Shown: in pieces, positions 1 to 976 of the stretch | Layout of the letters: the number at the start of each line of letters is the position of its first letter | Position numbering within the stretch: position 1 is the stretch's first letter | Virus record (IMG/VR): IMGVR_UViG_3300008259_000233 | Location: 1 to 24,170 of that record | Direction: 5' to 3' (one strand) | Length of the DNA: 24,170 nt | From: a virus | Position numbers and translations under genes: made by a program | The notes under the pieces: generated by a model | Databases searched by the model: none | What the model saw: the letters and a program-made list of their open reading frames with translations, nothing else | What the model was told of the DNA's origin: nothing

Positions 1-2
1 GC

Positions 3-113
3 AGAACAGTCGTGCAAGAAGGTCTTGTATGGCGGTGCAGTAACTGCTACCTTATATTTTTAACCAAGTCCGCTGGAGATGACCACAAATGCCAAGACCC
101 AAGAGTGAACTGA
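3..113 (+). CDS. 3' end of a possible small zinc-knuckle protein
   Basis: This is an open frame entering from the left edge and ending in TGA at 111-113. The visible 36 residues contain C12-x2-C15 and H28-x-C30, a spacing typical of small zinc ribbons or knuckles. That pattern is the only reason to prefer this frame. The true start is outside the window, unless the GTG at 12 is used. It overlaps the next gene by 25 bases, and that gene's GGAG site lies inside it. The competing frame 1-63, ending in TAA at 61-63, is also open and ends in an ordinary-looking hydrophobic tail. I cannot decide between them from sequence alone. If real, a nucleic-acid-binding or structural zinc role is likely, but nothing more specific can be said. 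Confidence 0.3.
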   Translation, partial: RTVVQEGLVWRCSNCYLIFLTKSAGDDHKCQDPRVN

Positions 114-253
114 CAACAACACAAAAACGCATTGGCACACGGTTGACGGTGTGGCAATACGAGGAATGGAAGTTGCTAGGAGCAACTAAATGGCTCAAGC
201 AAGTGCTCACAGAGAGCAGAAGAAAACGTTTATTGTCAGAGAAAAAATCGTAA
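89..253 (+). CDS. Small ribbon-helix-helix-like basic protein (54 aa)
   Basis: A 54-residue frame starts at ATG 89 behind GGAG at 75-78 (10-base spacing) and ends in TAA 251-253. It begins MPRPKSELT, followed by a basic segment, an aromatic-rich core (W22, Y24, W27, W35) and a very basic tail (SRRKR). The pattern of a short N-terminal strand (RIGTRLTVWQYEEW) followed by amphipathic helices resembles the CopG/MetJ ribbon-helix-helix proteins that phages and proteobacteria often carry as small DNA-binding repressors. The family assignment is inference from overall pattern, not from a diagnostic residue. It is the last gene before the structured leader at 257-405, so a regulatory link to the downstream replication genes is possible but untested. 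Confidence 0.65.
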   Translation: MPRPKSELTTTQKRIGTRLTVWQYEEWKLLGATKWLKQVLTESRRKRLLSEKKS

Positions 254-256
254 CCA

Positions 257-356
257 GCTAAGCGGGGGTATTTAATGTGGTCTGTGCAAACCTAGTAGAT
301 GTAACCACTGCACCACGAACAACAGCGCCGCTTAGCATTGGACTACGCTGTTGTTC
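257..356 (+). promoter_or_regulatory. Leader pseudoknot 1 (9-bp and 11-bp interlocked stems)
   Basis: Two perfect inverted repeats interlock. GCTAAGCGG at 257-265 is complementary to CCGCTTAGC at 328-336 (9 bp). GAACAACAGCG at 317-327 is complementary to CGCTGTTGTTC at 346-356 (11 bp). The second arm of stem 1 lies in the loop of stem 2, and arms 317-327 and 328-336 abut with no intervening base. This is the layout of an H-type pseudoknot with coaxially stackable stems. Loop 1 is 51 bases and can hold a small hairpin (GTGGT 277-281 with ACCAC 304-308). Loop 3 is 9 bases. No convincing coding frame with a ribosome site was found in 254-425. Function is unknown: possibilities are a cis-regulatory leader, a protein-binding operator like the phage T4 gene 32 leader, or a structured ncRNA. 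No U-tract follows, so it is not an intrinsic terminator. Confidence 0.6.
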
Positions 357-366
357 AGCTTTCCAA

Positions 367-405
367 CCGCGAACCGAGGGGGCGCGGAATCTACTTGACC
401 CCCTC
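367..405 (+). promoter_or_regulatory. Leader pseudoknot 2, just upstream of the VRR-NUC gene
   Basis: A second interlocked pair follows directly. CCGCG at 367-371 pairs with CGCGG at 383-387 (5 bp), and GAGGGGG at 376-382 pairs with CCCCCTC at 399-405 (7 bp). Arms 376-382 and 383-387 again abut with zero bases between them. Loop 1 is 4 bases and loop 3 is 11 bases, dimensions typical of classical H-type pseudoknots. The structure ends 8 bases before the AAAGGAA ribosome site (about 414-420) of the gene starting at 426. It could therefore tune translation of the VRR-NUC gene and the operon behind it. Folding is inferred from complementarity only. Confidence 0.6.
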
Positions 406-425
406 ACCAATTCAAAGGAAACTGT

Positions 426-710
426 ATGGCATCGACACCGGAAGTAAAAGTTAAAAAACAAATCAGGAAACTGTTGGACGAGCTGGGCGTGTACTACGCC
501 ATGCCAATCGGCACAGGCTACGGCAACTCAGGGGTGCCAGACTTTCTTGTATGCGCCAATGGTGTGTTCATTGGGGTAGAGGCAAAGGCGGGGAAGAATA
601 AACCAACCGCACTACAAGAAGAACATATGCGCCGCATAAGAAGCGCAGGGGGAGTAGCAATGGTAGTGAACGAAGACAACATAAACGAACTTAGAAAGGT
701 ACTGACATGA
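426..710 (+). CDS. VRR-NUC domain nuclease
   Basis: This 94-residue protein is almost entirely one VRR-NUC domain, the stand-alone phage version of the PD-(D/E)XK fold that in eukaryotes forms the catalytic part of FAN1. The core is G36-V-P-D39 and then V51-E52-A-K54-A-G, which supply the metal-binding Asp/Glu and the catalytic Lys. Q64 follows at the usual distance, and E6 in the first helix is a plausible fourth ligand. VRR-NUC proteins cut branched or flapped DNA structures, which suits a replication or recombination role. The start ATG 426 has AAAGGAA upstream. The stop overlaps the next start (ATGA, 707-710). It is the first gene behind the tandem pseudoknots and probably the first gene of the replication operon. 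The exact substrate cannot be read from sequence. Confidence 0.93.
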   Translation: MASTPEVKVKKQIRKLLDELGVYYAMPIGTGYGNSGVPDFLVCANGVFIGVEAKAGKNKPTALQEEHMRRIRSAGGVAMVVNEDNINELRKVLT

Positions 711-976
711 AAGACGAAGACGCATTAGAAAAACGTTTGACGCTGATGGATGATGACGAGAAGCTGCACTTCAAGATGGTGATACTGGAGTTGGTTAAGT
801 GTTACGGCCCCAACCCAAACCAAGCTGTGCTGATGGTTAAAAAAGAGGGCGAGATAACAACCCTCACCACGATGAACTGTGACGAAATGGAAGCCGCAGA
901 GATGCTGCTGGAGGTCAACAGTTTTTTCGGGTTCTTAAACACTATCGACGCTCCCCCTAAAGAGGCATTTAATTGA
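707..976 (+). CDS. Unrecognised small acidic protein (89 aa)
   Basis: An 89-residue frame is translationally coupled at both ends. Its ATG overlaps the preceding stop (ATGA), and its TGA at 974-976 overlaps the TTG start of the polymerase. The N-terminal third is very acidic (MKDEDALEKR, then LMDDDEKLHF). The middle contains a short strand pattern (NQAVLMVKKEG, TTLTTMNC), followed by an acidic helix (CDEMEAAEMLLEV). No membrane segment, signal peptide or metal motif is visible. Its place between a nuclease and the DNA polymerase suggests a replication accessory role, but the family is not recognised. Confidence 0.85.
   Translation: MKDEDALEKRLTLMDDDEKLHFKMVILELVKCYGPNPNQAVLMVKKEGEITTLTTMNCDEMEAAEMLLEVNSFFGFLNTIDAPPKEAFN

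Follow-up and report, generated by a model that had tools for sequence, protein, structure and literature searches.

New classes of RNA with intricate conserved folds have often led to the discovery of ribozymes, riboswitches and RNA-protein machines. In the leader of T4 gene 32, an H-type pseudoknot serves the binding of the gene's own product. The phi29 pRNA is a single-copy phage RNA whose structure is kept more than its sequence and in which a loop pairing is possibly intermolecular. Known small ribozymes can also be intercistronic, pseudoknotted and independent of any given gene. The STAXI motif (RF01728) is presented, in the part of PMC2864571 that deals with it, as a pseudoknot repeated two, usually three times in tandem. 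According to the sections of PMC9378689 concerned with it, the put RNA of HK022 has ~70 nt and two stem-loops, lies near early promoters and occurs twice per genome. Finally, the account of DRT2 in the relevant part of PMC12039810 describes a non-coding RNA that serves a reverse transcriptase.

We analyzed the window, that is the whole stretch of 24,170 bases of the IMG/VR virus record IMGVR_UViG_3300008259_000233. It holds at 257-405, on the + strand and between two genes, an element of ~150 nt. Comparison with its homologues shows the predicted fold to consist of two H-type pseudoknots (P1 crossed by S2, and P6 crossed by P7) tied together by the helix P8, which makes three pseudoknots (Table 1).

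Table 1. Helices of the element and flanking genes, in window positions
Feature	Position	Strand	Remarks
Upstream small ORF	89-253	+	54 aa; stop 3 nt before P1
P1	257-265 with 328-336	+	9 bp, perfect; first helix of pseudoknot 1
P2/P3 hairpin in P1 loop	277-281/312-316, 284-286/306-308	+	
2-bp mini-stem in P2/P3 hairpin	290-291 with 301-302	+	
P8	294-300 with 389-395	+	AGTAGAT with ATCTACT; 7 bp, long-range; third pseudoknot
S2	317-327 with 346-356	+	11 bp, perfect; crosses P1 (pseudoknot 1)
P6	367-371 with 383-387	+	5 bp, perfect; first helix of pseudoknot 2
P7	376-382 with 399-405	+	7 bp, perfect; crosses P6 (pseudoknot 2)
Likely ribosome site of nuclease gene	413-420	+	AAAGGAAA
Downstream VRR-NUC-like/Hjc-like nuclease gene	426-710	+	

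Structure of the element and compensatory change in its helices

The initial annotation had described four perfect inverted repeats of 9, 11, 5 and 7 bp, arranged as two interlocked pairs whose middle arms abut. All four were found again where it had placed them, and zero bases indeed separate the S2 5' arm from the P1 3' arm (327/328) and the P7 5' arm from the P6 3' arm (382/383). Its two pseudoknots thus stand, but it had missed the P2/P3 hairpin as well as P8, whose strands lie in the P3 apical loop and in the loop of pseudoknot 2. Perfect helices of at least 7 bp number exactly four in 254-425, namely P1, S2, P7 and P8. We also scored 2000 dinucleotide-preserving shuffles of 254-425 for abutting interlocked pairs. 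A single such pair with minimum arm lengths of 5 and 7 appeared in 97 shuffles. Raising both minima to 7 left 2 shuffles, and two pairs at the minima of 5 and 7 were seen in 3. The second pseudoknot alone could therefore be due to chance, both together hardly.

Homologues were collected by protein, pattern and model searches. Searching with the protein of the downstream nuclease gene yielded 176 relatives, and the best 80 were taken; the full RNA motif is found in 63 of these 80, is absent from 16 and, in L032, is interrupted by the end of the contig. The first pattern scans, of viral contigs and of genome contigs, fixed GTAGATG, AATCTAC and CCCC, and a stricter later pattern fixed more bases; the invariance of these three motifs in the collected loci is thus imposed by the search pattern. 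A covariance model, R1, built from 35 sequences, matches 75 of 100 sources at E<=4e-5 and 18 of 100 in a second set at E<=2e-7. The stricter pattern gave 69 viral stretches with 44 new loci, all of which are matched by a second model, R2. More distant nucleases were gathered by profile search, unselected on the RNA, and the best 80 of at least 574 were examined: the element is present in 14 of these loci (E<=2.1e-6), including 2 contigs previously collected. Altogether, at least 175 element loci, mostly from viral contigs and with a few Burkholderiales genomes, provide 131 distinct core sequences.

Exactly one copy is present in each of 50 long virus records. A relative of the 2713-aa protein of the window is encoded by 33 of these 50, which suggests that the remaining records are other lineages or incomplete. 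As a separate observation, the matches to this protein in G857, G859 and G877 (the records of L332, L338 and L091) contain one in-frame TGA each, found in none of the other matches listed; recoding or a shared nonsense mutation are possible reasons.

Helices were located sequence by sequence in 92 aligned sequences by an ungapped search. The S2 5' arm directly abuts the P1 3' arm in 31 of the 92, and at most one base separates the two in 60; elsewhere the search often chose a shifted or extended P1, and a few assignments are clearly poor (e.g. L041, L279). For an arm-swap test, 143 anchored sequences were grouped into 59 clusters with one representative each. The complementarity of a sequence's own arms exceeds that of swapped arms for P1, P2, S2, P6, P7 and P8; for none of these helices did any of 10,000 permutations attain the observed mean. 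A pair-by-pair count on an alignment of 71 sequences covered the 19 pairs of P6, P7 and P8, with P6 inside the aligning model and P7 and P8 outside it; the support for P1 and S2 is that of the arm-swap permutations. In this count, standard pairs occupy 97.6% of the cells against 83.7% in shuffles, 15 of the 19 pairs show changes on both sides against 6.8, and 160 cells carry such changes against 36.2. When the partner is slid by 1-3 columns, pairing falls to 40-58%, with at most 6 pairs and 23 cells covarying; the weakest measure of covariation, further pair types, was reached by 13 of 500 shuffles. Helix by helix, both-side changes affect 5/5 pairs of P6 (98.3% paired), 5/7 pairs of P7 (95.7%) and 5/7 pairs of P8 (98.8% of cells). 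Compensatory change in homologues, which the initial annotation had put forward as the way to check the stems, is therefore strongly present, and two interlocked helices, as in an H-type pseudoknot, are kept through it.

Since the P8 core was fixed by the search pattern, P8 was re-examined in the loci fetched by the nuclease protein profile. Its core there reads GCAGAT/ATCTGC in L459, L460, L445 and L424, ACAGAT/ATCTGT in L456 and L468, GTAGGT/ACCTAC in L434 and GTATAT/ATATAC in L477 and L454. The outermost pair of P8, among the 71 sequences, is U-A in 37, A-U in 16, G-C in 7, C-G in 3 and G-U in 2, and is unpaired in 6. The predicted pairing of P8 is thus supported by covariation, which would fit pairing within one molecule as well as between two.

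Single mismatches inside the helices of the representatives amount to 42, namely 21 G-U/U-G, 5 A-C/C-A and 16 others. This excess of G-U over A-C in the helices overall fits an RNA read from the + strand, P7 taken singly being without it (G-U 1, A-C 2). RNAalifold on the first alignment was set aside as a summary of the fold because it shows no pseudoknots, and MAFFT displaces the S2 arm in some rows of that alignment. Apart from the bases fixed by the pattern, the unpaired positions conserved near the two P8 strands are C(-3) in 59/59, A(+9) in 56/59 and little else; this survey covers the surroundings of these two strands, and a pocket built of helices would be invisible to it.

Gene neighbourhood in phages

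As the small upstream ORF is on the same strand and stops just before P1, the element is intercistronic and the term leader, used in the initial annotation, is not right. The product of this ORF looks, by eye only, like a ribbon-helix-helix protein and has no PHROG match. The product of the downstream gene matches Pfam Hjc with E=0.0066, which is below the Pfam cut-off, and its name VRR-NUC comes from the initial annotation and from the annotations of some relatives.

Neighbouring ORFs were found mechanically in the 131 distinct sequences, and some of them are surely chance ORFs. A co-directional ORF lies upstream in 125 of the 131 and downstream in 107. The commonest next gene is the nuclease: its motif is present in 66 of the 107 downstream ORFs (duplicates removed), and 72 of 116 downstream ORFs fall into one cluster. 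Upstream and downstream neighbours nevertheless each fall into many clusters, and the next genes among relatives encode the nuclease, DNA polymerase-like proteins, small proteins or VIT/VWA proteins. The element is tightly packed, with the upstream stop codon at -14 to +9 nt from P1 in 68/91 and the start codon 16-23 nt from P7 in 52/79. In RNA-free nuclease loci, the upstream stop is found at -9 to +29 nt from the start in 13/16, the exceptions being L067 (-31) and L078 and L079 (-133), and the two genes overlap in 5/5 of the RNA-free MerR-VIT junctions examined. Because the flanking genes of RNA-free relatives mostly overlap or nearly abut, the element resembles an insert at gene junctions.

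In 23/131, the element is parted from the next gene by a sigma70-like promoter-like site; 10 of 34 downstream promoter calls (spacer 15, TAAAAG) were dropped since they overlapped the ribosome site and the start codon. A hairpin resembling an intrinsic terminator follows the element in 3/131 (L163, L216, L332) and, by eye, the weak match L476, and in L163 and L216 a promoter-like site is present 3' of this hairpin. Within 110 nt upstream of the element, a loose and uncontrolled scan gave a promoter-like site in 8/131. With no evident promoter of its own, the element seems to depend on read-through from the upstream gene. It lies midway in a ~22 kb co-directional block in the 66 kb record G006 and near the end of such a block in the 63 kb record G009, as judged from mechanical ORFs. 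As a general account, the 'leader of the replication operon' thus finds no support: the element sits between co-directional genes, with neighbours and operon position both varying.

Several other signals surround the element. In L117, L125, L126, L173, L369 and similar loci, the RNA is closely followed on its 3' side by a promoter-like site whose -35 is nearly palindromic (TTGACAAAGTC[AC]AA) and whose -10 comes a few bases ahead of the start codon of the nuclease, which suggests a leaderless mRNA. The palindrome CCTAACA-N(0-3)-TGTTAGG occurs 52 times in 25 loci (e.g. L119, L125, L163, L216, L345, L368). It immediately precedes the RNA in some phages and closely follows it in others, and is perhaps an operator. 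In L412:996-1170, the P7 3' arm is followed ~10 nt later by a run of seven T, which would allow P7 to serve also as a terminator hairpin in that phage.

Bacterial copies beside MerR and VIT/VWA genes

A loose-pattern scan of bacterial genome contigs gave 116 stretches among the matches listed, all of which were scored with the model. At least five contigs carry the element by this score: L244 and L304 from Limnohabitans, L279 from Rhodoferax, and L216 and L314 from a beta proteobacterium and a Burkholderiales bacterium. The remaining stretches of the 116 gave no match better than E=0.08. Each of the five genomes contains one copy, at the sensitivity of the model search. In L244, L304, L279 and L314, the element is located between a MerR-like and a VIT/VWA-like gene, with the Pfam domains confirmed in L244 only, and in L216 the next gene is a phage-type nuclease. 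In the family, 399 genomes searched with the model under strict filters gave a single match, the query genome itself; within the genus, 3 of 41 genomes match, including the weak L325. This last copy (L325:1501-1649; same genus as G001) scores 37 bits, looks partly decayed and is followed by no clear co-directional gene for ~340 nt. Within the order, 399 genomes were scanned with the pattern and two matched, G552 besides the query genome; G552 was rejected as a carrier because the model does not confirm it.

The VIT/VWA gene was considered as an obligate partner of the RNA and rejected, since 16 of the 17 VIT/VWA loci from 299 genomes of the family have no RNA in the stretch examined; a MerR-like ORF lies upstream in 14 of these 16. 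Further out in the L244 genome, ZorC (PADLOC E 1e-86) and ZorD (1e-281) are found on one side, and DndB (PADLOC E 1e-157) on the other side beyond other ORFs. In L371:36-13126 (genome G001, Limnohabitans), the MerR and VIT/VWA pair has ZorC/ZorD on one side and DndB further on, and the N-terminus of its MerR protein resembles PADLOC mad1 (E=8e-7). Related VIT/VWA loci devoid of the RNA lie in 16 other genomes, and the MerR-VIT/VWA pair is possibly an uncharacterised defence operon.

Possible role and relation to known RNAs

What would be the benefit for a phage to carry such an RNA? The overall explanation that we consider best, and rather probable, is that the element belongs to a new class of structured RNAs, is ~150 nt long and is read from the + strand; it would more likely be an RNA in its own right than a switch for a single gene. 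Tentatively, action as an RNA in its own right is the most likely role. The element would be transcribed as part of the operon transcript, its ~150-nt folded domain would be kept stable, and this domain would bind a protein or another partner in trans rather than switch one neighbouring gene. Supporting this idea, there is one copy per record, the neighbours vary, and promoters or terminators separate the element from the next gene in some loci; we also count in its favour the VIT/VWA loci devoid of the RNA. On the other hand, no promoter of its own is evident and the packing between genes is tight, which leaves room for a role in the translation of the neighbours, although compact genomes also explain tight packing. 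Few unpaired bases are conserved in the parts surveyed, so that no clear partner-binding surface is visible there. Among the three roles offered by the initial annotation, the independent structured RNA fits best; the other two, an operator and a ligand-sensing leader for the first replication gene, find no support as a general account. A bolder scenario, speculative and unlikely, would be that, during infection, the phage-borne three-pseudoknot RNA works in trans, and that it was adopted by some Burkholderiales into a MerR-VIT/VWA pair, once in a defence island, to serve as or to sense a phage signal.

As the main rival, possible if less likely than the stand-alone role, we consider a cis-acting intercistronic element. 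It would decouple the translation of two genes that would otherwise overlap or abut, shield the upstream mRNA end against 3'-5' exonucleases or mark a processing site. Such a role would account for the tight spacing to the stop codon and to the next start, for flanking genes that mostly overlap or nearly abut in RNA-free relatives, and for a structure conserved more than its sequence. However, a generic insulator would be odd in exactly one copy in every long record, and the next gene is already separated by a promoter-like site in part of the loci (23/131).

We doubt still more that the element regulates the translation of the downstream gene as a leader, be it a riboswitch or an autoregulatory operator bound by a protein. 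The element often ends ~20 nt before a start codon and the nuclease most commonly comes next, as this reading would have it. But the next genes range from nuclease and DNA polymerase-like genes to those for small proteins and VIT/VWA, promoter-like or terminator-like sites intervene in some loci, and, among the unpaired bases surveyed around the P8 strands, few are conserved that could form a ligand pocket. The constant association in cis with the genes of one pathway that marks a riboswitch is not seen, and downstream genes that differ between relatives speak against autoregulation of the T4 gene 32 type.

An RNA antiterminator like the HK022 put RNA, which would make the polymerase resistant to the terminators of the downstream operon, is improbable. 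It would suit a gene-independent element within co-directional blocks, followed by terminator-like hairpins in L163, L216, L332 and the weak match L476. In G009, however, the element is so near the end of its block that little is left to read through, L163 and L216 have a promoter-like site after the terminator, and the put RNA, where PMC9378689 describes it, is made of two stem-loops in ~70 nt. More improbable again is a new self-cleaving ribozyme cutting the polycistronic transcript: the element is intercistronic, pseudoknotted and gene-independent, but only a handful of unpaired positions around the P8 strands are conserved and no Rfam ribozyme matches it. Chance inverted repeats or a DNA-level structure such as an origin or a binding site, which the vicinity of replication genes might suggest, have next to no chance in view of the covariation in every helix tested and of the overall excess of G-U over A-C, which fits an RNA of the + strand.

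Concerning known families, Rfam 15 gave 0 matches in the whole window at the gathering cut-off, one match at 748-791 and none over the element in window 1-800 at E up to 5, and, in 17 loci at E up to 1, tRNA and one match away from the element, with none over it. The initial annotation, which did not recognise a known riboswitch class here, agrees with these searches. By blastn, no related element was found in the named phages of INPHARED with window 1-800 and three other variants, nor in PLSDB with one variant; a 70-base query gave only 23-base matches (E=7). No earlier description of the RNA was found in the open-licence literature searched. The 'Burkholderiales-1' motif has no Rfam number in the table of PMC2864571 and thus stays outside the comparison. 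On this basis, we read the element as a putative new class of structured RNA, set apart from Rfam 15 and from the open-licence literature, its newness lying in the RNA class and fold, function apart. It is common in IMG/VR virus contigs of this type, yet absent from Rfam 15. With the helices fixed by covariation, the design of compensatory mutants can start straight away. That the RNA is placed in single copy and independently of any given gene makes one ask what service such a fold renders to the phage, and one would also wonder why a few bacteria retain the RNA beside a VIT/VWA gene.

Parallels can be drawn with the systems described above. Like the T4 gene 32 leader, the element places an H-type pseudoknot ahead of a phage gene for DNA metabolism, but its neighbours vary. 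With the phi29 pRNA it shares the single copy, a structure kept over sequence and a loop pairing that may take place between molecules; unlike it, it is found in bacterial loci too, next to MerR and VIT/VWA genes, and it has no Rfam match. STAXI, as far as PMC2864571 describes it, is also a pseudoknot motif near genes that bind or handle DNA. The element has neither its tandem repeats nor a match to RF01728: each record holds one copy, in which two different pseudoknots are tied by a third. The DRT2 RNA, in the part of PMC12039810 devoted to it, is likewise a pseudoknotted RNA beside a defence-system gene, whereas the flanking genes named for the element are others than a reverse transcriptase. 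Finally, the put RNA, following the relevant sections of PMC9378689, is like the element a structured RNA of phage early transcripts that is independent of any one gene, while the element differs by its ~150 nt, its pseudoknots, its single occurrence per record and its varying position in the operon.
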